DNA of 64,000 nucleotides from contig NC_092648.1 in the NCBI RefSeq assembly GCF_032118995.1, forward strand, positions 15,001-79,000. The letters are read 5' to 3'. Positions 22,486 to 58,711 of this stretch are shown here, piece after piece (position 1 is the stretch's first letter; every line of letters starts with the position of its first letter). Below the pieces are notes generated by a model. The model was not told the origin of the DNA, searched no databases, and was given only the letters and a program-made list of their open reading frames with translations. The translations under genes were made by a program, and so were the position numbers. Source of the DNA: Asterias amurensis (lineage: Eukaryota; Echinodermata; Asteroidea; Forcipulatida; Asteriidae).

Positions 22486-22792
22486 TAATAAGAGTTATTG
22501 TGAGTCACAATATTATTTTACATGTCCTTAAATAATAACTAATAAAAAAAAACCCATGGTGGCCACCATGTGGGGGTACCCCCAGAACACTTATAATATT
22601 GTTTGGATGAATAACGGAAAGGCAGTGTGACACTTAATAAAAGGTACCATTCATATTTAATACAACATTCAAATTCAGTAAAAGTATAACTAAATTTTAT
22701 TAGTTTGTAACGTTAAACCACTCATAATAAAATACACTTCATGACAAGCTTGTTGTCTTTATATTTCTAATGAGTTTACCCTATTGTTTCAT

Positions 22793-23032
22793 ATTTGTAA
22801 TGAGCAATTGCATTACAAATATTTGTAATGAGCAATTGCATTACAAATTTACATAACTTTGTTTCAGGCTTGTAATGCAGTACTTCATTACGCACTTGAA
22901 ACTTTGACATACTTGCAATGAGGTATTTCATTGCAAGGATGTTTTGCATGAGTGTAATGAAATACCTCATTACAAACAAGCAATATTAAAAATGTGAATA
23001 CATAAACTTGTAAGGAATTATTTCATTACAAG
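22793..23032. repeat. Cluster of six TGTAATG...CATTACA palindromes
   Basis: Six hairpin-forming palindromes of 25-28 bp at about 22793-22820, 22821-22848, 22869-22893, 22913-22938, 22952-22976 and 23007-23032. Consensus arms are TTGTAATG and CATTACAA with differing 8-10 nt centres. The first two are identical tandem copies. The same cluster, with one copy fewer, lies at about 57553-57775. Confidence 0.92.
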
Positions 23033-23733
23033 TTATTACATATTCTGTCTACAAAATAAGTTGAACAAGGCAGCTTGAAGCAGGAACTTCATCACATCAA
23101 GACATCACTACAACTCATCAACTAAAAGACCTTTAATTCCTACAGCCAGCCCAAGCCATTCCTCATCACACCAGTAGACAAAAGTCTGCAGTTGAAGGCT
23201 ACCATCACCCTTCCAACCATCGGCCATGCATCTCACAAGCTCCAACGAATCGTCAGCCAAGCTCAACTCAAGACCTTCCCAGAAACAAACAAGATTCAAA
23301 CATCACTTCACACAGAAGACCAGCATTCCCTCTGAATGCGATGACACATAGAGGAGACCTGCTGCATTCATATCCATGAGAATCAAGAAACATAAAGCAC
23401 ACAGCAGTCTGGGACACCATGACAAATCACCCTTGATCAAACACTCACACAAACAAAGGGTCTTTCAGAGCCAACACTCACACAAAAGAGTGTACCCACA
23501 AGTCAAATATACATATTTATAGTTTCTTCCTATTTCTATTTACCATGCAAAGCTCCAAGCAGTACTATAAATATTCAAGTCATTGTTCCACAATAAGAAA
23601 ACTTTGTTGTGTAAGTGAGTTCAATCTGCAGATGAATCCGGATGAACACGCTGTAATATCAAGATCCATTGGAAGATTCGTTCAATGTTGTTCATGCTCT
23701 TGGAACGTCTACTCAATGGTGGAAGTACATCCT

Positions 23734-42241: not shown

Positions 42242-45200
42242 CTACAAGTTTGGAGAAAAACAATATCAATCAAATTTAAGTTAATGAGGGTTTAAAACAA
42301 CCACATGTGCTCTAGATCGATCCAAGTATAACAGGTTTGATTTTACATTTAGAACAATAAAACATTCACAGTTTGAAGTATTTAGGGCTTGTGAACTGTA
42401 GCAATGTATTCCTACCTTCTACAGGGCACTCTCCAAGATTGCAGGGACTTGTGTCCATTGGTCGATCTTCAAAACAATTAAATTCTTCAGGATTATCTGT
42501 AGGGGCTCCACACATAACTGTACGACTCATGAACCCATCTCCGCAAGTGACGGTACACTGCAAGAAATGGAGTAAAAAACTCTTTCAAGAAGCTTCAACC
42601 CAAAATAACAAAAACTTTGGGAAGTGACACTGGTTTTTTAATTATTAAGCTTTTATACTCAAATAGTAAGCCACAAGGGCCAGTTTCCCTTGTCTTTTAT
42701 TATTTTGTATTTTAAATAAGAAACCACACCCCCTGAAGGTGAACCCTGGCTGCTTCCCTGACTAAATGCAGGCCCAGTATGTTTATCCAGCTGGAGGTTC
42801 TTGGTTCAAATCCAAAGTCAATTTGTCTCCGTTCAACCATTATTAAACAAGATTTAATACTGTGATGTAGTTAAACAATAAACAGTCTGGTACTTACACT
42901 AGACCAATCCCCAATACTCCAGAATGCTGGACAAAGTTCCTGGTTGCAATTCTGACGAGTCGCTGGCTTCTCCTCAATACACCTCTCAGCTGCAGTAGAT
43001 GACACCTTTCTACCATTTTTTTTGATACAGCGTACCCCTCGTGATTGGACACCATTAGAACCACAGGTATGAGAGCACGGGTTCCATTCATCTACTTGCC
43101 ACTTAAAAACAGGTGTCTTCTTTCCTCTTCCTGATGGTTTAAAGGGTTTCTTTGTCACTGTAGGAGTGGTTGGTGGTCGAGTTGTTCTTATAGTTGTCGT
43201 TGGTGGAACTGTGGTTGTCATTTTGGTGGTAGTCTGCATTGTTGTTGGAGGCTGAGTTGTAGTGGGAGGTTGGGTTGTAGTTTGCTGGGTTGTTATTGGA
43301 GGCTTTGTTGTAGTTTGCTGGGTTGTGGTGGTACGCTGTGTTGTAGTTTGCTGGGCTGTGGTGGTACGCTGTGTTGTAGTTTGCTGGGTTGTGGTAGTTT
43401 CAGGCAGAGTAGTTGTGATAAGCTTAGATGTGGCAGGTTGTGGCATTTGGGTTGTAACTAAAGGGGCTGTTTCTGGTTCAATTCTTCACAAATGGGGAAA
43501 GCAAACAAAGTCTGATTTTAAACCAATTTTGTGTTTTTCTGTTTTCCAGAGGGAGGAAAAAATAGAGTACCAGGACAAACACACTATGAGAGAACCAAAG
43601 TTACATAAAATATGATTGACCATTAAGCTTTGAATCTAATAGGGTCAGAAAAGCAAAAGTGGGGTGCTTTATGCAGTACCTATGTTATCCATAAATATAA
43701 CATTGCATTAATTGTGATGCTTTGAGAGGTATAACTGGATTGATAAGGCACATATTATTATTATTATTAAAGACCTCATACTCGAACATAAGGTAGCAAC
43801 CTCTTATTGAATTTGGAGGCGTCCAGAGTAAACATTGTACAGGCTTCAATTGGCTTTGGGGAACTTTTTATAACATCTTAATGATGTCTAACGGCAAAAC
43901 AATTTGGAAATCAAATTACATTAGGAACATTAATGCATAAAACAAAATTGACCACAAGGAAAATGAGAGGCTTCTAGCTTACATAGTTTCATCACAGGAT
44001 TGTTCATTGCAAGGTTTCTTGGATGCCTTAGGGTTGTAGCTGCCCTGTCCACAAAAGGTTTTCTTCACTCTAGAATCGTCACTGCTCTTAATACACTGGA
44101 AGCTATGGAAAGAGAAACCTACACAAAAAGAAAACCCAGAGTAGAAGGATTAATCTCAATAATTCTGATTTGATTGAAAATTCTTTCGAACAATATTGTC
44201 TGCTTTTGTATCTTCACATCTGGCTATTAGTTACAACCTCTTATATGTTATGACAGCAACATCCACAGTTTTCCTAACAGGCATCCAAGACAGCAGAAGC
44301 CCAAGATCTTAAGAGCACATCCCACCGCTCCTTCAATTCCTTCACTGTCTTCCCATTACCAAGGGAATCAATTTCAAAGTCTTTCTTTTACTTGTTTTTA
44401 AAGCCAAAAAATAGTCTCGCTCCTACTTATCTTCAGAACCTTATTTCAAACAAATCCTGCAGTTCTTGCAATCTACATTAATCTTCAAGTGATAGAGCAT
44501 TCACAGTCAGAGCTAAAACTATAGAAAAATCTCCCTCTTCACATCCGTCAGATAGAACAATCTCCCTCTTCACATCCGTCAGATATCGCTTCTTGAATGC
44601 TTCAAAGCCATGGCACAAACTCATTTAGTTTGATGCCAAGTTTATTATTCAATTGGTGTTTATTCGTATAGATGCTCTTGTTCAGCGCTTTGAAACTTTT
44701 GTAAAAGATGCTTTATAAAGTATTGTTATTATCAAAATTAAACACTTATTTTCACAAATCATCCTTCCACGACTCTTTCTCACTATAAACACTTTTACAA
44801 ATATTCCCTTACCTCCACCACAAGTTCGGGTACACTGAGTCCATCCCATATCCTGCCAAATAAACTCCACTTCTACTATAGGAACATGAGGGGGATCTGT
44901 AACAACAGCAGGCGCTGAGAAAATATGTACAGAGGCCGTTTGTTCTGTATTAGTAGAATCAGCAGTTTTCTCTATATAGTAGCTATAGGTTATATTGATG
45001 GGTTTGCTGTTCTTTTTCCAGAAAACCTAAAATGGGATAATAATAATAATGATAATAATAATAACATGCATTTATAAAAGCGCTTAATGCAGGGTGTTTA
45101 AGCGCTGAAACATACAGTAATTAGTAAGACAATAAAGTGTACGACAACAGTTTTAAGAGGGATGAACTAGCTGAACTGAACTAGCTGATGATTCACATTT

Positions 45201-48200
45201 TAAAAATTGTACAAACTGCTGTCAGGAAACTTGGGCCATAATTATGTGCTTTTAAGGTGGAGGGTTATTATTCATCATAAAACTTTAGAGGAAGTGCAAA
45301 CTAAATGTTGGTCCCATAAAGAAACATAACCACAAGGAAAACTGACCGAGTAAATTTGTAAATGATTTTTTGGGGTTAAATAAAGAAAAAATTAACTCGA
45401 GCAGGATTCGAATGAAAGACCTCTGGATTATTTTGCCGGTGCTCTACCTGAGCTATCTAGAAACATGGCAGAATTTACACAAATTACTATCTGTAAAAGA
45501 ATTTTTATTTACCAACAAATCCAGATCTGCTTGAAGTGGCCCAACAGTAAAGACTCTATCCTCATCAGGGGCATAAACAAATCTAGCTCTGCCTTCAATA
45601 AAAGAATGTGGTCCAGACTGGGTGCTACGAGCATTCAGTATGTAAGACTTGTCAGCTTTTCTTAATGCTGAAAAAAAAAATCAATACAAAAAAACAACTA
45701 TCACATCCAAGTTGAAGACTTATTTTTGAGGAATATTAATCTATACATCAAGCATAAAATAACCAATGAATACAATTAAGTTGTGATTCACACAATCTGT
45801 GTAAGAGTCATGTAACCTTGCAAGTCTACAAAGTGTTTTACTTGCAAACATGAGCAAACTTTACTACAGTTACAGAAAACCTTCAAACCAAAATAGTTGT
45901 AAACTCACCAATAAAGCTATCCGTGTGTGTGTTTTCCCTGACGTCGATATAGCGTGACCCAGCAGGTAATACATCAATCTGTTGATACTCTACAAGCAAG
46001 CAAGATAATATAAAGAGAACGTTAAGGTACCTTGATTCTGGCCATCAATAAAACACAGAATAAAGCTACACCCTCAATGACAATTATAGTAAGAAAGTAC
46101 TGAGACCAAACTTTGGGGAAACAAAAAATGGTAGATCAGTTTGCATGTATGATTTCATTTATTTTTCTTCTGAGGTTTTTTACAAATAATTATTTTGTTC
46201 AAAAATAAAGATGTAGCTATAAAGTTTTCAACCTTTATTAACTTCAATTTTTTCCACACTGATCAAGTTTCCTTGGTAAAGCTATATCTTCGGAGTTCTG
46301 ATAGGGTTTTTTGTGAATCAAATATCAAGAAAATTTGATAATACAATTTGATAAAAAAGGGTGGCTTTCAAACAACATTATAGCTTCTCTTACTTTTCTT
46401 TGGCTCACTGTAAAAATGTTTCTGAATGAAGTTACACTGGCTACTATCTCCGTCACATACTCCACATCTGTCTTCGACTTTGCTTGAATCAACAACTTTG
46501 TCACACCCTAGTTTCTGTGATCGATAGATAAGAACATTATTTCACATTTTACTGATAGTTGCATATACCAAGGAAAGTAAAAGAAATGTTTTTTTTATAT
46601 TAAATAACTTCATTCAAATGACAAGTTCAAGGTTTAAAACAAAATGATTACCCTCTCTCAAACACTAATTCACTTAGCATTTTGGACAACACACATTTCA
46701 GTCTCAAATTGAGCACAACTTATTTCATGTGTTATGCTCTCACTTGAAGTTTGGAGGGTTTGATCAAGTAATAGCTTCTTACCACACATTGGCCTTGTAC
46801 ACAGATACTGTGATGGTCATCATATGAACAAGGTGTTCCATCCGTCACATTGTAGTCAGTCACAACAACATCTTCTGTCTTACTGGAGATGCATGTTAAT
46901 CGACACTGTAAGGTTTCTATGGCAACAAAGTCAACGGAAAACAAGTAGTCAGTTTAATAAAAGATATTTTACAAATTCCACACAGCAGTAAGATTATTTT
47001 TTTAAGTTCAATTTTAACTTCTACTTCTATAACAGTGACTTACTATTTCTATTCTCAAATGGGAGCCATGAGTGAATTGTTGATCTGTGAGTAAAGCTGG
47101 CTAGATTGTCTTCACACTGCTTAGCTCTTCTGTCTTCCAAATCACCAACACATTTCTAAAATAAATATCATGCAAATGATAAAGAAAATAATAATCAAAT
47201 CAGAATAAAAATGGACTTCACAGAAACTCCATTTTGAATAAATTTGTAGGTGTATAGTTCTTTTGCTGTGTATATTTTGAGAAGATTTTAGAACTTCAGG
47301 AACTTCCTGTCTCTCATGAGCTGTGCTGAGCCTGATCCAAATCTATGACATGGTCTAGATCGGTAGAGCGTTTTAATTTGATTTGTCATAATCCCTTCTT
47401 CTACCTTGTGCTTCATGTTCTTTCAGGCTTTTATTAAGGTCTCTACCAGCATCTCCTATAAAAACACTTTCCTTCAGACAATAGCTTAACTGAGATTGAA
47501 CATTTACCTTGGTATTACACAGACGGTATTCATAAGATTCTCCTTTGCAGTCTTTTCCTCCATGAGAGGGCCTACAAGGACAAACAAAATATCTTGAATA
47601 GATCTCAGACATTCCAAAGTTCATTATTAACCCCCAAAATGGCGTGGCCATTTCTGAATCTGTAGTTAATTAAATACGGACCAAGAAAAATGTATGAAAA
47701 TGTTAGAATTAAATACTCACGCTGGGTTATCACATTTCCTAGTTCTGACTTCAACACCAACATCACATGGGTAGGAGCAATCACTCCATTGAGACCATTT
47801 ACTCCACTCCCCATTCTGTCGGCCCATGTCTCTAAAAACACAGATTCCTTGAATGCACCACTAAACACAAACATAGAAACTGGTTACTCACACTTTATGG
47901 TTTCAAATACACATAATACAACTACATCTATTTTTGGAAGTGTGTTTATTGCCACAATTGAACCAAGTGAGGCACCACAACCAATATCACTTTTTAACAT
48001 AACAAAAATTATATCAACATCTTATACCCCTTTGAGGCATTGTTGGTACTACACAATACCTACAAAAACTATTGAAGGAGCTGATAACAGGTGCAGCACC
48101 TATCAACATCCACCTGCTAACCCCCCATTTAAGTCTTTGCTAACTAAAGAACAAGCATTCCTACCTTGTCGCTACCACAAGCAGACCCATCCAGTGCTGG

Positions 48201-51200
48201 TCCCTTCTTGGTACGGCAGTACTGGGGATCCCAGGGATCAATACACCATAATTGATGACAAGATTTAGATTCCTCTGGCTGCAAACAAAGATTGAGCAAT
48301 GAGTTCTGAATAGTAAGTTTGACAATAACATCATCTATCTGGTCAATAAAATAGGAAGTTGTGTACCATAAAAACAGATGAATAAAAGCCCTTTTATACT
48401 TGTATTCATTGAGATGATGGTTGTGATCACAGCATTGGTCAAAATGATTTGAATTTGGATTCAGGAACAATCTTCTGCCAAATAGAGAAACGCTTCATTG
48501 GTTCTGTTCAATTTAAAATACATAATTATACTCAACAACATCTATGAATGTTACCACAAAACTTCCAGTAATATAAACACCTGGAAATGTACTCTTCTTA
48601 AAGAAAAAAAAATCACCAATGGTTAAAAAACACAAAATAATATGGAAAACAAAACCAAGGTGAACTTTAAGCACAAAATGATCTATAGGCATAGTACACT
48701 ATAGTAAACATTGTTGGTTTGACTGACTGATGCACATTTACAAGAGGTTTCTGTTAGACCAATTTAGTTATACTTTAGCCTAGGCAGACCTTGCTGTTCA
48801 AAGGTCAGGAACCGATGAATTAAACACATTATGAAAAATCTGGAAAATAATTTGAAGTTAAAAACTTCTTCAAAGAAATTCACAGCCCTGAAATTTACTT
48901 TAAAAGGTTCATCCCTGTTTCCCAGGTTGTGGTCGTTTTGAAATAATTTGTTTAACACTATTTTATGGGGGTTATGGAAGAAGTGGGGCATAGTTTCAGT
49001 TATTTTTCTGGAGAGAGTATGTTGATTGATATGTGAACCCCAACAAACTGCAATTCCCACAACGTATTAGTATGTGATAACAAAATTACATAGGAGAGCA
49101 AAAGTGTGACTCTGGCTATTTATAAACCCCACAGTTTTTGCCACTGATTATCAATTAATGTTATTTATCAAATAAAAAATGCTTTTCCCAGTGAAAGAGA
49201 TGTCACTCTCTAAAATGAAGTTACATAAACTAAAAAAAAAGCTGTAAAATTCTACACTGGCTCAGGTCAAGCCCCATCAGAGTAAAACTACTTCAATTCA
49301 TGCACAGAAACATACATTGAAACTACCATTCATGCACAGAAACAAACAATGAGACTACCATTTTCAAAGGAAAAATATAGGCAAAAAGAAAGATAATGTT
49401 GTTACATTGCAAAATGGGAAAAACTTCTCTAATTTGAAGTTGCAGTTTGAATGCAGATTAGGTTGAGAAATACAAAACTGTTGAACTAAAAACTTGAACA
49501 AATAAAAACAGAAATTAACATCAATATTTCCCAGGCTCCAATGTCTAAAGCTGCTAAGCGATGAAATTTTGCTCAGCACGTACCATAAATAGGTTAGCAA
49601 TATTTTACTTTAGAAGCCATACATATTTTAATAAAATATTTCATGCAGGGAATCATGCGATGAAATTAAAATCATAACATGTTGAGAGAAATGCAAAGCT
49701 GTAATGAAATATCTGTTGTGAGATTAACATGTACCATACATAATGTGCAAGTCTGATTTGTCTGATAATGCGCTGTGAGAACAAAGACCCTGTAAAAAGG
49801 ACTCTATTAGGACATCCTTAAACAAGATGATCATAAGCAGGTCATTAAGAACCACTTGAGGCCCTTTCATGTCAGTGCACACTTAGGACAATATTCTTGT
49901 ATAGATTTCTGCTTGAGGAAAATCTTTTCACTTAGCAACTCGGTGAGATTGGGCCCACATATAACGGACCTTACTTTTCTCAAAAGAGGGCATTTGGAAG
50001 GGTCTACATTGGTGTCATCAGCCAGACTGGTTAAGAATTGTGTGACCCTGCAAAAAAGCCTCAGCACTTGCCGGTGGGCTCGCTGTCAGGTGAAAAATAT
50101 CAGCTTTATTGAATAAGTTTGTTATCTTTTGAATAGCAGTTTTAAGTGAAACAGTGATTGAGAAAAAGAGTGTTTATGGTATAAAATAGACAAGCTACAT
50201 GATCATGCAAGTAAGCAAGTAAGCATGCATGTCCTAAAACCAATCCTCAATGCAACCCCACCATGACAACAAAATAAATAAATAAATGAAAAACAATTCA
50301 AACAAACTAAAAAATGTATTATAATACGAATTGACAAAATTTTCACAAAAGTGTGGAAGAGAGAAATTAACTTTAAAGTGTATAAGGCAAAAGTCATTTA
50401 GTTTGACATAGATTCAGTTATAGCAACTGAATGACAAGGTCTATTTTAGATTTTAGTTCGTCTTCCTTTTCTTTTTTGTTTATTGTAAGAGCGCAAACTT
50501 TTGCTTTTTGTTTAAAAAGGGTAGGAGTTGATTGTCACAACAATTTAAGCAACTTTGAATACAGTGGGCCTGGTTGACTAGTCTTGACTGAAGTCACCCT
50601 TGACATAACCTATGTCACTTTTGACGTGAATTATCACCCTTGATGACCAGCCTTCATAAATCATCACTATTGGGATAAACATACTTTACCGTGGTTATAC
50701 AATCAACTGCTTACAAGTTGTTTCACACAAGGGGATGAGGAGAGTCCACACTTACAAGTTTTAACTAGCTTGTTTTATTGAAAGGGGATTTATTGTGTTT
50801 AAAAAGCTTTATATATCATCAATAGTGACATCTAGAAAAAGAAAATAAAAACTAATAAATTCACTAGTTGGACTTGTGAAACATGTTGATTGCTTGATTT
50901 TAAATTCACTCATTGTTTTGAACTAATTAAGTACACACTAATGAAGCTCACTCCAAAGTCCCAGTGGAATAACACAATGACAAGGGGAAGTAAATCCTCG
51001 CCCTGCCTATAAACCCAAATGAATGACCGTGCTGGGTGCCAAATATCAAAGCAAAGATGGTTAGAAACAAAATATTTTGATAACAAGTTCCCTGTAACAC
51101 TACATTATTTTTTCCTATTTCCTTTAAAGCAATAAACAAAACCTGTCAATGACAGGTACAGGTTGGTATAAACAATGATGATGACATTTATCTGTATCAC

Positions 51201-54200
51201 GATGAGAGGACATTTATTGGCTGAAACCAAAGCAAACTTTACATATTTGTACACTTGTTAAAAACAAGCAAGTGAAAACAAAATATTTATGTGCTCAACA
51301 TGTGTTAAATGTTGGTCATCCTGATGGTAGGAATGTTTCATGATACAAATTTCTTTCAGCCTTTGAGAAAGACTCTGCTAGGGTTGAAACTTCAGGCTAT
51401 TGTTTTTATTTCTACCATATGGGTTTTTGGTTGGTAAGCTGTTAGCAAAACAATCCAATATTTGAAGAATGGAATTGTGTAAGCTTGAAAATTTAAAAAG
51501 CTAAGGGAGTCTGTCTAAAGTAATTAGGTGACATGATTTGCCATAGGTCAACAGTGCCCCAAAACAAATCAACACTTAATGTTGAATTGCTTGTTGGTGA
51601 AGTGAACTGTCACATCATTATTATTTTTTTTTCTTATTCTGAAACTTAAACAAAAATGTGCTGGGAATAAATGGGTCCAAATTTTCTTATACTATTGCAC
51701 ACTATGGAAACATCTTCTATACCTTAAAAAAAAAACATAGTTTATAATAATTTGTGGGGGTCAACTCTGACTACAAAGAAGAAAAGTGGAGCAAGGGTTT
51801 CCAGACCTTGTTACAGAATTCCAAAATGAAATGTTAGTATCAATGACATTATTAAATTACCAATTACTAGAAAACCAGGAACGATGATCAAATAACAAAA
51901 ACTTGAGTCATACTGTTTATTCCAAACAGCTGGACCCTTTTCAAGGAAAACTCTCATGCACCCACAAAAGTCCTTATTTAGAGGATATTTTAACATTAAC
52001 TGATTTAATTCCTTTCTTGTAACAAAGTGTCTCTGATTAATACCCTCATACTTTGGGAAGGTATTAACAACAATGTTTTATGAGCTCTGCAGTCTTGTTC
52101 ATTTTGGTTCATAGTTTCAGAAACGTGTTAAAGCATGTCCTGATCAGAGGTAAACAAAAAAACAGCAGGAAAAAAAACAATAACAAAAAAACTTTGTTTT
52201 TGTTTTTGTAGATTAAACAAATAAATCACAGCCACTCACAAACATTTATCTGAAAAATTTGCTAGTTCCATTAAAATCTGATCGGCTGAAATAATTAAAA
52301 TACACTTATTTTCCATAAAAAAAATATATAGACTATGAGAGGAATAATCCTGGATATGCAAAATTTCCAATTATGGCAGAGTGGTTTCAATATTTGCAGT
52401 CAGGAAAGAAGAGGGGAAAAGAGGAAATAAGAATACTTACAGTTCCACAAAGTTCAAATTCTTCACCAAAGTCAAATTTACACTGATCATTCATATTGTA
52501 CCATTCCCCTGGATATCCATCTAACTCTGGAAGGCCACTTTCAAATGGAGAATCCTCTAAACAGGTGTAAGCTCTGTAAGGAAAATGGATCATCGGTTTA
52601 TTATTGCATCAAGAAATCAGGGGTTTCAAGCTAGTATTCTAAATTTGAACAAAGTATATTCTTCAAGATACATGATACATATTGACATCATTTAATACAC
52701 TCAAAAGTTTCCAGCACTGTATCATTAACTTTTCTGAATCAACATCTCATCTAAAAGAAAAAAACACACCAAAGCTTTGAAAGTAATTGTTAATGATGTT
52801 CCTGTCTTTATTGGGAGCTTATGGGAATGTGGGAGCTTACTAACACAGACTCTCAGATTGCTTCTGTATAACACAAGAGTAACTCACCTAAGGTATCGAA
52901 GAAGCTTACTAACACAGACTCTCAGATTGCTTCTGTATAACACAAGAGTAACTCACCTAAGGTATCGAAGAAGCTTACTAACACACACTCTCAGATTGCT
53001 TCTGTATAACACAAGAGTAACTCACCTAAGGTATCGAAGAAGCTTACTAACACAGACTCTCAGATTGCTTCTGTATAACACAAGAGTAACTCACCTAAGG
53101 TATCGAAGAAGCTTACTAACACAGACTCTCAGATTGCTTCTGTATAACACAAGAGTAACTCACCTAAGGTATCGAAGAAGCTTACTAACACACACTCTCA
53201 GATTGCTTCTGTATAACACAAGAGTAACTCACCTAAGGTATCGAAGAAGCTTACTAACACAGACTCTCAGATTGCTTCTGTATAACACAAGAGTAACTCA
53301 CCTAAGGTATCGAAGAAGCTTACTAACACACACTCTCAGATTGCTTCTGTATAACACAAGAGTAACTCACCTAAGGTATCGAAGAAGCTTACTAACACAG
53401 ACTCTCAGATTGCTTCTGTATAACACAAGAGTAACTCACCTAAGGTATCGAAGAAGCTTACTAACACAGACTCTCAGATTGCTTCAGTATAACACAAGAG
53501 TAACTCACCTAAGGTATCGAAGAAGCTTACTAACACAGACTCTCAGATTGCTTCTGTATAACACAAGAGTAACTCACCTAAGGTATCGAAGAAGCTTACT
53601 AACACAGACTCTCAGATTGCTTCTGTATAACACAAGAGTAACTCACCTAAGGTATTGAAGAAGCTTACTAACACAGACTCTCAGATTGCTTCTTTATAAC
53701 ACAAGAGTAACTCACCTAAGGTATCGAAGAAGCTTACTAACACACACTCTCAGATTGCTTCTGTATAACACAAGAGTAACTCACCTAAGGTATCGAAGAA
53801 GCTTACTAACACACACTCTCAGATTGCTTCTGTATAACACAAGAGTAACTCACCTAAGGTATCGAAGAAGCTTACTAACACAGACTCTCAGATTGCTTCT
53901 GTATAACACAAGAGTAACTCACCTAAGGTATCGAAGAAGCTTACTAACACAGACTCTCAGATTGCTTCTGTATAACACAAGAGTAACTCACCTAAGGTAT
54001 CGAAGAAGCTTACTAACACACACTCTCAGATTGCTTCTGTATAACACAAGAGTAACTCACCTAAGGTATCGAAGAAGCTTACTAACACACACTCTCAGAT
54101 TGCTTCTGTATAACACAAGAGTAACTCACCTAAGGTATCGAAGAAGCTTACTAACACAGACTCTCAGATTGCTTCTGTATAACACAAGAGTAACTCACCT

Positions 54201-57200
54201 AAGGTATCGAAGAAGCTTACTTACACACACTCTCAGATTGCTTCTGTATAACACAAGAGTAACTCACCTAAGGTATCGAAGAAGCTTACTAACACACACT
54301 CTCAGATTGCTTCTGTATAACACAAGAGTAACTCACCTAAGGTATCGAAGAAGCTTACTAACACACACTCTCAGATTGCTTCTGTATAACACAAGAGTAA
54401 CTCACCTAAGGTATCGAAGAAGCTTACTAACACAGACTCTCAGATTGCTTCTGTATAACACAAGAGTAACTCACCTAAGGTATCGAAGAAGCTTACTAAC
54501 ACACACTCTCAGATTGCTTCTGTATAACACAAGAGTAACTCACCTAAGGTATCGAAGAAGCTTACTAACACAGACTCTCAGATTGCTTCTGTATAACACA
54601 AGAGTAACTCACCTAAGGTATCGAAGAAGCTTACTAACACACACTCTCAGATTGCTTCTGTATAACACAAGAGTAACTCACCTAAGGTATCGAAGAAGCT
54701 TACTAACACACACTCTCAGATTGCTTCTGTATAACACAAGAGTAACTCACCTAAGGTATCGAAGAAGCTTACTAACACAGACTCTCAGATTGCTTCTGTA
54801 TAACACAAGAGTAACTCACCTAAGGTATCGAAGAAGCTTACTAACACAGACTCTCAGATTGCTTCTGTATAACACAAGAGTAACTCACCTAAGGTATCGA
54901 AGAAGCTTACTAACACACACTCTCAGATTGCTTCTGTATAACACAAGAGTAACTCACCTAAGGTATCGAAGAAGCTTACTAACACACACTCTCAGATTGC
55001 TTCTGTATAACACAAGAGTAACTCACCTAAGGTATCGAAGAAGCTTACTAACACAGACTCTCAGATTGCTTCTGTATAACACAAGAGTAACTCACCTAAG
55101 GTATCGAAGAAGCTTACTTACACACACTCTCAGATTGCTTCTGTATAACACAAGAGTAACTCACCTAAGGTATCGAAGAAGCTTACTAACACACACTCTC
55201 AGATTGCTTCTGTATAACACAAGAGTAACTCACCTAAGGTATCGAAGAAGCTTACTAACACACACTCTCAGATTGCTTCTGTATAACACAAGAGTAACTC
55301 ACCTAAGGTATCGAAGAAGCTTACTAACACAGACTCTCAGATTGCTTCTGTATAACACAAGAGTAACTCACCTAAGGTATCGAAGAAGCTTACTAACACA
55401 CACTCTCAGATTGCTTCTGTATAACACAAGAGTAACTCACCTAAGGTATCGAAGAAGCTTACTAACACACACTCTCAGATTGCTTCTGTATAACACAAGA
55501 GTAACTCACCTAAGGTATCGAAGAAGCTTACTAACACAGACTCTCAGATTGCTTCTGTATAACACAAGAGTAACTCACCTAAGGTATCGAAGAAGCTTAC
55601 TAACACACACTCTCAGATTGCTTCTGTATAACACAAGAGTAACTCACCTAAGGTATCGAAGAAGCTTACTAACACACACTCTCAGATTGCTTCTGTATAA
55701 CACAAGAGTAACTCACCTAAGGTATCGAAGAAGCTTACTAACACACACTCTCAGATTGCTTCTGTATAACACAAGAGTAACTCACCTAAGGTATCGAAGA
55801 AGCTTACTAACACAGACTCTCAGATTGCTTCTGTATAACACAAGAGTAACTCACCTAAGGTATCGAAGAAGCTTACTAACACACACTCTCAGATTGCTTC
55901 TGTATAACACAAGAGTAACTCACCTAAGGTATCGAAGAAGCTTACTAACACACACTCTCAGATTGCTTCTGTATAACACAAGAGTAACTCACCTAAGGTA
56001 TCGAAGAAGCTTACTAACACAGACTCTCAGATTGCTTCTGTATAACACAAGAGTAACTCACCTAAGGTATCGAAGAAGCTTACTAACACACACTCTCAGA
56101 TTGCTTCTGTATAACACAAGAGTAACTCACCTAAGGTATCGAAGAAGCTTACTAACACACACTCTCAGATTGCTTCTGTATAACACAAGAGTAACTCACC
56201 TAAGGTATCGAAGAAGCTTACTAACACACACTCTCAGATTGCTTCTGTATAACACAAGAGTAACTCACCTAAGGTATCGAAGAAGCTTACTAACACAGAC
56301 TCTCAGATTGCTTCTGTATAACACAAGAGTAACTCACCTAAGGTATCGAAGAAGCTTACTAACACACACTCTCAGATTGCTTCTGTATAACACAAGAGTA
56401 ACTCACCTAAGGTATCGAAGAAGCTTACTAACACACACTCTCAGATTGCTTCTGTATAACACAAGAGTAACTCACCTAAGGTATCGAAGAAGCTTACTAA
56501 CACACACTCTCAGATTGCTTCTGTATAACACAAGAGTAACTCACCTAAGGTATCGAAGAAGCTTACTAACACACACTCTCAGATTGCTTCTGTATAACAC
56601 AAGAGTAACTCACCTAAGGTATTGAAGAAGCTTACTAACACAGACTCTCAGATTGCTTCTGTATAACACAAGAGTAACTCACCTAAGGTATCGAAGAAGC
56701 TTACTAACACACACTCTCAGATTGCTTCTGTATAACACAAGAGTAACTCACCTAAGGTATCGAAGAAGCTTACTAACACAGACTCTCAGATTGCTTCTGT
56801 ATAACACAAGAGTAACTCACCTAAGGTATCGAAGAAGCTTACTAACACAGACTCTCAGATTGCTTCTGTATAACACAAGAGTAACTCACCTAAGGTATTG
56901 AAGAAGCTTACTAACACAGACTCTCAGATTGCTTCTGTATAACACAAGAGTAACTCACCTAAGGTATTGAAGAAGCTTACTAACACAGACTCTCAGATTG
57001 CTTCTGTATAACACAAGAGTAACTCACCTAAGGTATTGAAGAAGCTTACTAACACAGACTCTCAGATTGCTTCTGTATAACACAAGAGTAACTCACCTAA
57101 GGTATCGCAGAAGTTCTGCATTACTGCATTCTGACCAGAAATGATTATTGTACGTTGAAATGACAACAGGTGCCATAATGGAGCCAAGATAGGGATCCTC

Positions 57201-57240
57201 TGTACAAGTATTTCCAGATCCATCATGCTCCATACCAAAT
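42021..57240 (-). CDS. ADAMTS-family secreted metalloprotease, 3' part of gene (15 exons, N-terminus missing)
   Basis: Joined exons (- strand order): 57097-57240, 52441-52573, 48165-48278, 47721-47860, 47508-47571, 47044-47155, 46783-46916, 46394-46514, 45909-45989, 45513-45667, 44813-45026, 43983-44118, 42898-43483, 42416-42557, 42021-42241. All have GT-AG borders with matching phases, giving one open frame of 831 residues plus stop TAG. Domains in order: end of the catalytic domain (FGMEHDG with the third zinc His, Met-turn SIMAP), disintegrin-like domain, TSR1, Cys-rich module, spacer, TSR2, Thr/Gln-rich mucin-like linker, TSR3, TSR4, PLAC domain, Lys/Arg tail. The family consists of secreted zinc proteases of the extracellular matrix. 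The signal peptide, prodomain and HExxH half of the active site are not in the visible exons. PLAC plus several TSRs recalls the vertebrate 6/10, 7/12 and 16/18 groups, but I cannot assign an orthologue. It is convergent with BOLA1. The exon model is my own reading; family certainty is very high, individual borders high. Confidence 0.95.
42416..42557 (-). CDS. ADAMTS exon: TSR4
   Basis: The exon lies between TTTCTTGCAG and GAAG|GTAGGA. It encodes CTVTCGDGFMSRTVMC ... SPCNLGECPVE, a complete CxxTCGxG...C...CxxxxCP pattern. Confidence 0.94.
42735..42820 (+). mobile_element. Possible tRNA-like SINE remnant
   Basis: A B-box-like TTGGTTCAAATCCAAAG follows about 30 bp after TATGTTTATCCAGCTGGAGG. 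Only this arm is convincing, so it may be chance. Confidence 0.25.
42898..43483 (-). CDS. ADAMTS exon: Thr-rich linker, TSR3, start of TSR4
   Basis: This 586-nt exon is the longest of the gene. After IEPETAPLVTTQMPQPATSK there are about 90 residues of TTT/QQ/P repeats, a mucin-like stretch likely to be heavily O-glycosylated. TSR3 follows (WQVDEWNPCSHTCGSNG ... CNQELCP), then the W-rich start of TSR4 (FWSIGDWSS). The Thr repeats are low-complexity at DNA level too and may vary in length between alleles. Confidence 0.92.
43983..44118 (-). CDS. ADAMTS exon: TSR2
   Basis: The exon lies between TTGTGTAG and ACTAT|GTAAGC. It encodes FSFHSFQCIKSSDDSRVKK..., then KKPCNEQSCDET. It completes the second thrombospondin type 1 repeat. 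Confidence 0.92.
44260..44745 (+). mobile_element. 3' fragment of a CR1/L2-like LINE (in ADAMTS intron)
   Basis: The + strand reads SSDRAFTVRAKTIEKS, resembling the C-terminal 'DRAFSVxAxxLWNxLP' end of non-LTR retrotransposon reverse transcriptases. About 200 bp later comes AGCGCTTTGAAACTTTTGTA, ending TTATAAAGTATTGTTATTAT, like the 3' tail of CR1/L2-type LINEs. The reading frame is broken by several stops, and a 36-bp segment (44525-44597) is duplicated. Only a dead 3' end remains. Confidence 0.6.
44813..45026 (-). CDS. ADAMTS exon: spacer end and start of TSR2
   Basis: The exon begins after CCATTTTAG with VFWKKNSKPINITYSYYIE, a typical spacer ending (I.Y.Y). It continues through a variable stretch to IWQDMGWTQCTRTCGGG at donor GGAG|GTAAGG. 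TSR2 keeps the CTRTCGGG O-fucosylation-type motif. Confidence 0.93.
45030..45115 (-). mobile_element. LINE/SINE 3' tail with TTA microsatellite
   Basis: On the - strand AGCGCTTAAACACCCTGCAT, AAGCGCTTTTATAAATGCAT and a (TTA)n tract follow one another. This resembles the tail of CR1/L2-type elements and their dependent SINEs. It lies directly upstream of the spacer exon 44813-45026. Confidence 0.45.
45395..45470 (-). mobile_element. tRNA-like SINE head
   Basis: The - strand shows a D-arm/A-box-like TAGCTCAGGTAGAGCACC and a T-arm/B-box-like CATTCGAATCCTGC about 30 bp apart. This is the internal pol III promoter layout of a tRNA-derived SINE. It is too diverged for a working tRNA. Confidence 0.5.
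45513..45667 (-). CDS. ADAMTS exon: spacer
   Basis: This 155-nt exon lies between a poly-T tract with TTTCAG and TTG|GTAAAT. It encodes ADKSYILNARS, ...RARFVYAPDEDRV..., ending LDLL. It aligns by pattern with the family's 'YxLNG...F.Y.....E...GP' spacer region. Confidence 0.92.
45909..45989 (-). CDS. ADAMTS exon: spacer
   Basis: This 81-nt exon lies between GCTTGTAG and ATTG|GTGAGT. It encodes YQQIDVLPAGSRYIDVRE, the spacer's conserved 'LPAGAxxIxI' strand. Confidence 0.94.
46394..46514 (-). CDS. ADAMTS exon: end of Cys-rich module, start of spacer
   Basis: The exon starts after GATCACAG with KLGCDKVVDSSKVEDRCGVC, then DGDSSQC. This is the conserved GCDxxxxS...DxCGVCxGD..C motif of all ADAMTS proteins. 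The donor is AAAA|GTAAGA. Confidence 0.96.
46783..46916 (-). CDS. ADAMTS exon: Cys-rich module
   Basis: The acceptor GTTGCCATAG was chosen because it keeps phase; the more obvious downstream TTACAG would shift the frame. The exon encodes TLQCRLTCISSKTEDVV, then VTDGTPCSYDDHHSICVQGQCV. This matches the family's CRLxC...DGTPC...D(I/V)CVxGxC. The donor is GTG|GTAAGA. Confidence 0.93.
47044..47155 (-). CDS. ADAMTS exon: start of Cys-rich module
   Basis: The exon lies between TATTTTAG and AAATA|GTAAGT. It encodes KCVGDLEDRRAKQCEDN and then HSWLPFENRN. It corresponds to the family's 'FReeQC...W.P' segment, though the usual RDFR is here LEDRR. Confidence 0.9.
47508..47571 (-). CDS. ADAMTS exon: end of TSR1
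   Basis: This 64-nt exon lies between CTTGTAG and AAG|GTAAAT. It completes ...CDNPAPSHGGKDCKG and ends RLCNTK. The motif P-x-x-GGxxCxG is diagnostic of ADAMTS TSR1. Confidence 0.95.
47721..47860 (-). CDS. ADAMTS exon: end of disintegrin-like domain and TSR1
   Basis: The exon begins after GTGTTTAG with WCIQGICV, which continues the previous ...GSDK as the family's KWCxxGxCV signature. It then encodes TSR1 with the W-rich WSKWSQWSDCSYPCDVG. The C-mannosylation-type WxxW pattern is intact, but the usual CSxTCG O-fucosylation motif is CSYPCD, with Pro in place of Ser/Thr. The donor is CCCAGC|GTGAGT. Confidence 0.95.
48165..48278 (-). CDS. ADAMTS exon: disintegrin-like domain, second half
   Basis: This 38-codon exon starts at TTTGCAG|CCAGAG and ends GACAAG|GTAGGA. 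It encodes CHQLWCIDPWDPQYC and then DGSACGSDK, the usual ADAMTS CxxLWC...DGTxCG pattern. Confidence 0.95.
48279..52440. other. 4.2-kb ADAMTS intron, nothing recognised
   Basis: The intron separates the two disintegrin exons. Short frames, for example around 49867-50116 on both strands, match no family I know and lack splice support. AT-rich, no clear repeat. Confidence 0.6.
52441..52573 (-). CDS. ADAMTS exon: disintegrin-like domain, first half
   Basis: The exon is entered from TTCCTTACAG, completes the split Arg codon and reads AYTCLEDSPF, then YNMNDQCKFDFG, ending FELCGT at donor ACT|GTAAGT. The pattern YxxxxQCxxxFG is typical of ADAMTS disintegrin-like domains. The intron between this exon and the previous one is 4,523 bp, almost all tandem array. 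Confidence 0.95.
52834..57111 (-). repeat. 69-bp intronic minisatellite with embedded splice donor, 62 copies
   Basis: Unit starts (AGCTTAC on the + strand) run from 52834 to 57043 in exact 69-bp steps: 4,209 bp is 61 periods, without an indel. On the - strand each unit reads ...CTTCTTCGATACCTTAG|GTGAGTTACTC..., copying the last nucleotides and 5' splice site of the ADAMTS exon at 57097-57240; the 62nd copy runs into that exon. Two main variants (CACAGACT and CACACACT on the + strand) follow a higher-order pattern. Rarer variants include TATTG for TATCG, and TTACTTAC for TTACTAAC in copies 21 and 34. Because 69 is divisible by 3, long + strand frames of a 23-residue repeat arise; these are by-products, not genes. 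Confidence 0.98.
57097..57240 (-). CDS. ADAMTS exon: end of catalytic domain
   Basis: The acceptor is CATGTTTGTAG and the donor AG|GTGAGT at 57096. The exon encodes FGMEHDGSGN, then SIMAP (Met-turn) and a stretch ending ELLRYL, leaving AG of a split Arg codon. The His of MEHDG is the third zinc ligand; the HExxH part must be on an upstream exon that I did not find. The last 17 nt and the donor are the parent sequence of the adjacent 69-bp array. Confidence 0.93.
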
Positions 57241-57286: not shown

Positions 57287-57440
57287 ACATAGTAGTAACT
57301 GTATTGTTATTGTTTCAAATAGTTCATATGAAGGGCATTGGTAGTAACTGTATTGTTATTGTTTCAAATAGTTCATATGAAGGGCATTGGTAGTAACTGT
57401 ATTGTTATTGTTTCAAATAGTTCATATGAAGGGCATTGTC
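57287..57440 (+). repeat. About 50-bp tandem repeat, three copies
   Basis: Three consecutive copies of a unit containing GTAGTAACTGTATTGTTATT and ending TTCATATGAAGGGCATT, just upstream of the ADAMTS exon on the - strand. The last copy is joined to unrelated sequence. Confidence 0.92.
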
Positions 57441-57552
57441 AATAATGTACTTATTTCCTCAGTGGCCTTGAGCGAGTCCTGGTCCAGTGTCAATAGGCCC
57501 TTTACAGGTTCAAGCTGCATATGGTGCATATTATTCAGTTTTACCCTATTGT

Positions 57553-57775
57553 TTCATATTTGTAATGAGCAATTGCATTACAAATTTACATAACTTGTTT
57601 CAGGCTTGTAATGCAGTACTTCATTACGCACTTGAAACTTTGACATACTTGCAATGAGGTATTTCATTGCAAGCATGTTTTGCACGAGTGTAATGAAATA
57701 CCTCATTACAAACATGCAACATTAAAAATGTGAATATATTAACTCGTAAGGAATTATCTCATTACAAGTTATTAC
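57553..57775. repeat. Palindrome cluster, second copy
   Basis: Five TGTAATG...CATTACA palindromes in the same order as at 22793-23032, lacking one of the two identical first copies. Confidence 0.9.
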
Positions 57776-58711
57776 GTATTCTGTCTAAAATAAGTTGAAC
57801 AAGGCAGCTTACAGCAGGAACTTCATCACATCAAGACATCACTACAACTCAACGACTAAAAGACCTTAAATTCCTACAGCCAACCCAAGCCATTCCTCAT
57901 CACACAAGTAGACAAAAGTCCGCAGTTCAAGGCTACCATCATCCTTCCATACATCGGCCATGCATCTCACAAGCTCCAACAAATCGTCAGCCAAGCTCAT
58001 CTCAAGACCTTCCCAGAAACAAACAAGATTCAAACATCACTTCACACAGAAGACCAGCATTCGAATGCGATGACACATAGAGGAGACCTGCTGCATTCAT
58101 ATCCATGAGAATCAAGAAACATCAAGCACACGGCAGTCTGGGACACCATGACAAATCAGCCTTGATCAAACACTCACACAAACAAAGGGTCTTTCAGAGC
58201 CAACACTCACACAAAAGAGTGTACCCACAAGTTAAATATACATATTTATAGTTTCTTCCTTTTTCTATTTACCATGCAAAGCTTCAAGCAATACTATAAA
58301 TATTCAAGTCATTGTTCCACATAAGAAAACTTTGTTGTGTAAGTGAGTTCAATCTGCAGATGAATCTGGATGATCATGCTGTAATATCAAGATCCATTGG
58401 AAGAATTGTTCAATGTTGTTCATGCTCTTGGAAAGTCTACTCATTGGTCAAAGTACATCCTTAGTAACAGTCGAAGCTGGTGGATATGACCTTCTTTGAT
58501 GAGGGCAGTCATCATGAAGAAACAGTCCTCCTTTACAAAGACGGTGTTGAAGCAACAGTTTTATTGGTGCTGCATAATGTGGCTCAGCATCTTGACGTAA
58601 CCAGCTCTTAGTTGTTCCACTCTGTTCATCCTGTAATATGATATAAAACAAAATTGAAACAAAAAGATTTGTAAGTTCAATTTTTGTGTTTAAGCAAAGT
58701 TTATTTTCCGC

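Follow-up and report, generated by a model that had tools for sequence, protein, structure and literature searches.

The intron between two exons of an ADAMTS gene is occupied for most of its length by tandem copies of its own 5' border. On the minus strand of the window, which is the whole 64-kb stretch of DNA that was analysed, 62 head-to-tail units of 69 bp fill positions 52834-57111, and each carries the splice-site motif CTTAG/GTGAGT, in which the slash marks the exon-intron junction. The array is probably a young intronic minisatellite seated on a 5' splice site, which would have begun with duplication of an exon edge, expanded to 62 copies and left the exon-proximal donor as the one mostly used. 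It provides a natural test of how the spliceosome chooses one donor among 62 near-identical ones in series, and bears on the question of position versus sequence in donor choice.

The structure of the array was assessed by TRF, self-identity and motif counts. TRF places it at 52834-57113, with a period of 69, 62.0 copies, 98% matches and 0% indels, which confirms the 62-copy, indel-free array of the preliminary description. Self-identity at a shift of 69 is 0.989, compared with 0.144-0.335 at the remaining 19 shifts of 60-79, and the starts of all 62 units, from 52834 to 57043, are spaced exactly 69 bp apart, as had been described. The sequence CTTAGGTGAGTTACTC occurs 62 times on the minus strand, and CTTCTTCGATACCTTAGGTGAGT has 56 exact occurrences, the remaining six units being five C64T units and the exon's own. 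Eight haplotypes are present, represented by 30, 22, 4, 2, 1, 1, 1 and 1 units, with a mean pairwise divergence of 1.18%. The HindIII site AAGCTT is present 61 times within the array. CTTAGGTGAGT is found in all 62 units without any variable position; since variation is confined to six of the 69 unit positions, this invariance is uninformative about selection on splice motifs. Units 21 (54214-54282) and 34 (55111-55179) both carry A9T, a change that gives the unit a second donor-like sequence, GTAAGT, on the minus strand.

The host gene runs on the minus strand through exon A (57097-57240; 144 nt, phase 2 at both ends), which encodes the end of the metalloprotease domain, exon B (52441-52573; 133 nt), which belongs to the disintegrin-like/cysteine-rich region, and exon C (48165-48278). 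The typed peptide of these three exons matches Pfam ADAMTS_CR_2 (E 7.7e-16) and, below the cut-off of 20.8 bits, Reprolysin (E 0.0034, 17.9 bits). It also matches eight distinct PDB sequences (E up to 0.001), each of which is named ADAMTS13, 5, 1 or 4. Five of seven further ORFs scanned contain ADAMTS_CR_3, TSP_1, TSP1_ADAMTS or ADAMTS_CR_2 above cut-off, and the gene is assigned to the ADAMTS family because one strand carries the end of a metalloprotease domain together with ADAMTS cysteine-rich and TSP1 modules. No HExGH, a form of the zinc-binding HExxH motif, was seen in the three minus-strand frames of the window; presumably the 5' part of the gene lies beyond it, or the motif is split by an intron. 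A separate 33-bp (11-codon) array is located at 43251-43395 within an open ADAMTS frame, in a Thr/Gln-rich linker ahead of a TSP1 module.

The intron separating exons A and B (52574-57096, minus strand) is 4523 nt long, and the array contributes 4263 nt, or 94%, of it. With a single copy of the unit it would be 314 nt, so that it illustrates about 14-fold growth of an intron by copying of its own border. Its acceptor had been placed at 52574, a position that holds as the last base of the intron; the next exon begins at 52573. At the other end, unit 62 (57043-57111, minus strand) contains the edge of exon A itself and the true donor at 57096, and is the presumed parent copy; position 66 sets it apart from the other 61 units. 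The array was earlier said to abut the exon. The two do adjoin, but the array overlaps exon A, unit 62 holding its last 15 nt. The exonic match spans 17 nt (57097-57113), with a sole mismatch at 57108, where the exon reads CTG and the copies CTT, both encoding Leu.

In register, the unit thus comprises 17 exonic and 52 intronic nucleotides, and both, with the donor between them, would have been copied when a 69-bp segment spanning the 3' edge of exon A was duplicated in tandem. The alignment with ADAMTS13, 5 and 1 continues through the residues that the exonic part of the unit encodes, which makes exon A the likely source of the array; this alignment and the in-register unit lend good support to the origin from the exon edge that was first proposed. 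Compared by eye, the copied junction and the two parent sites have CT in common, the pattern of a duplication that involved about 2 bp of microhomology. The rest of the 64-kb window contains no further copy of the unit by blastn (E up to 0.01), on which ground a satellite or mobile element is rejected. Rfam gave no match at gathering score within the window, and one 28-base core of the array has no exact match in viral contigs, a weak check in that the collection is not animal DNA.

Once established, the array most likely grew partly in multi-unit blocks, to judge from the order of its variant units. A run of 12 haplotypes in units 14-25 (53731-54558, minus strand), including the rare A9T unit, is repeated in units 27-38 (54628-55455, minus strand) at an offset of 13 units. 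Of 2000 shuffles, 6 yielded a recurring run this long at a fixed offset, and the run is therefore taken as support for the duplication of blocks of several units; another 12-unit run is seen at an offset of 7. The repeated run fits growth by replication slippage or unequal crossover, as originally suggested, although the mechanism itself is inferred; in such a scheme unequal exchange or slippage, partly in multi-unit blocks, would have raised the copy number to 62. A regular higher-order periodicity is not supported: autocorrelation of a C/G marker, examined at 30 lags, has its maximum at lag 7, with a non-significant p of 0.39 once the maximum over the lags is taken. Expansion driven by hairpins finds no support either, as three units fold no better than shuffles (z 0.33 for RNA and 0.09 for DNA).

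It is unlikely that the array is genuine but its length wrong through an assembly error in copy number. Units about 99% alike and a 12-unit run that is itself repeated are features that would favour such an error. However, the variant units are irregularly ordered and both ends of the array are joined to unique sequence, which is what long reads would be expected to give.

The copied donors are strong. By approximate donor and acceptor weight matrices, TAG/GTGAGT scores 10.89 bits as a donor, compared with 6.03, 8.29, 6.40, 7.25 and 7.98 for five other donors scored in the gene, and 8 of 3775 GTs outside the array on the same strand score as high. The array has 62 occurrences of the motif AGGT[AG]AGT, against three elsewhere on each strand. 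As a control, AGGTRAG is absent from either strand of 19 intervals holding other tandem arrays, hand-picked from 38 TRF rows after short-period and redundant rows were dropped, versus 62 occurrences here; the exon list used in this comparison includes one ORF (42874-43485) and one approximate exon start (47840). The window is generally rich in minisatellites, with 20 selected, partly overlapping intervals summing to 8067 bp, or 3787 bp without the 69-bp array. Three identical copies of a 49-bp unit are located at 57292-57438, 52 bp from the opposite side of exon A. A dispersed repeat is also present in two copies (57540-57800 and 22775-23066), which are 95-100% identical over matched pieces and hold TTGTAATG-like internal repeats.

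In addition to the true donor at 57096, 61 decoy donors were counted, in line with the earlier figure of about 61. Depending on the donor used, exon A would measure 144, 213, 282 nt and so on. Exon definition would in general favour the shortest exon. Most splicing of this pre-mRNA probably starts from the donor nearest the exon, because pairing with the acceptor over a 144-nt exon would be preferred to pairing over 213, 282 or more. Use of a decoy would extend exon A into AGG TGA, an immediate in-frame stop; leakage to an inner donor would therefore retain n x 69 nt, meet the TGA at once and yield a truncated or decayed product. The array may be tolerated because it is intronic, and by default it is regarded as a near-neutral minisatellite. 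Effects on splice-site choice, which the preliminary description had raised, are plausible in light of the human ABCA7 precedent discussed below. An effect of another kind, in which skipping of the next exon grows with array length as in ABCA7, is possible.

The juxtaposition of AG and GT in all 62 units raises the question of whether copied edges of this type can splice recursively. CTTAG/GTGAGT could be dual-specific, serving first as an acceptor and then as a regenerated donor, so that the intron would be removed in multiples of 69 nt; every path would give the same mRNA, and the array would be hidden from selection. The AG preceding each array donor scores 5.43 bits as an acceptor, close to the weakest of the five real acceptors scored (5.77, 9.11, 8.88, 10.45 and 6.42 bits; the acceptor of the exon starting at about 47840 is outside this set). 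Of the 180 AGGTs outside the array on the same strand, two reach the level of the unit in donor as well as acceptor score, and the sum of its two scores is equalled or surpassed by five. Precedents exist in the dual-specific array of UBC and in juxtaposed ratchet points. However, 204 of 3162 AGs outside the array score equally high as acceptors, and the 69-bp unit lacks a yUnAy branch motif. All five real acceptors have one or more yUnAy motifs in the nearest 60 nt, although for one of them the sole motif is at -56. Outside the exon-array region the motif has a density of 1.69 per 69 nt, which by a hand Poisson estimate gives a probability of about 0.18 that 69 nt lack it by chance; the missing motif counts mildly against splicing at the array AGs. 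Recursive removal of this sort is accordingly hard to credit on balance, and it is more doubtful still that the array forms a full ladder of 61 AG/GT steps, 69 nt apart, in which the copied exon edge neutralises its own decoys. Such a ladder would let the intron grow at little cost, with a failed step exposing the immediate stop.

U1 snRNP is known to suppress premature polyadenylation, a function called telescripting. It may be that the 62 strong donors act as a platform that holds U1 snRNP and thereby suppresses premature polyadenylation or alters skipping of the next exon, as would suit both the strength and the number of the donors. The remainder of the intron contains two AATAAA and one ATTAAA, the array none, and ABCA7 offers a case in which exon skipping rises with VNTR length. 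The sequence bears no sign of such use, however, and a platform of this type is improbable.

Very improbable is a ladder of pseudo-exons, in which the 45-nt segment from TTATACAG to the next donor (RSNLRVCVSKLLRYL) would sometimes be spliced into the mRNA, so that repeats of 15 residues would be inserted where the protease part meets the disintegrin-like part. The segment is stop-free and in frame (phase 2-2), and TTATACAG/A has an acceptor score of 6.93, higher than two of the five real acceptors. On the other side, the unit offers no branch motif, 45 nt is short for an exon, TTATACAG is intact in only 60 of 62 units, and a frame and openness of this kind are expected by chance roughly one time in six, by our own estimate. 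A coding array is rejected as a gene, since each of the three minus-strand frames of the unit contains a stop (read by eye). One plus-strand frame is open through the unit and interrupted at C64T (ORFs of 306, 988 and 91 aa); the repeat peptide it encodes matches nothing in Pfam above cut-off.

The favoured reading, a donor-anchored intronic minisatellite, has published relatives. The array consists of tandem intronic units of minisatellite size that include the true 5' splice site of the flanking exon, and it is a large, clean addition to the known minisatellites of this type. Since such minisatellites have already been published, the kind of object is less new than the first reading implied. 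Searches of open-licence literature turned up no such array in any ADAMTS gene, which is not proof of absence.

The closest comparison is with the VNTR in intron 18 of human ABCA7, which is reported to include the exon 18 donor, with alleles of 298 to 10678 bp whose length differs among people (PMC5954066). Like the ADAMTS array, it is an intronic tandem array directly beside an exon, includes that exon's donor in its first bases and measures several kilobases in some alleles. Low-level retention of one VNTR unit leads to a premature stop in ABCA7 (PMC5954066), comparable to the immediate TGA predicted here for decoy use. Skipping of exon 19 grew with VNTR length in that report, whereas unit retention was unchanged with length (PMC5954066). 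The ABCA7 unit as described is 25 bp, C-rich and begins at the GT; the ADAMTS unit, at 69 bp, reaches back 17 nt into the exon and includes AGs that resemble acceptors. The IFI6 (6-16, G1P3) minisatellite provides multiple splice donor sites, its repeat units being used as donors (Turri et al. 1995, via a citing paper). Use of downstream units, a possibility in the ADAMTS array, is reported in IFI6.

RT-PCR shows that human UBC is spliced through dual-specific AGGT sites arranged in tandem (PMC10809524). In both arrays AG/GT recurs with constant spacing, and the spacing (228 nt in UBC, 69 nt here) is divisible by 3. The UBC units are coding and demonstrably spliced, whereas those of the ADAMTS array lie in an intron, carry a stop in each of the three sense frames and offer candidate splice sites. 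The ratchet points described in fly introns are likewise juxtaposed acceptor-donor pairs. Finally, tandem duplication of an AGGT-containing segment is reported to be able to create introns, as in the Rogers model, ATP2A1 and the 24-bp repeats of fission yeast (PMC4974935). The ADAMTS array would share that type of duplication; in those cases, however, a new intron arises within exon sequence, whereas here an existing intron has been lengthened.
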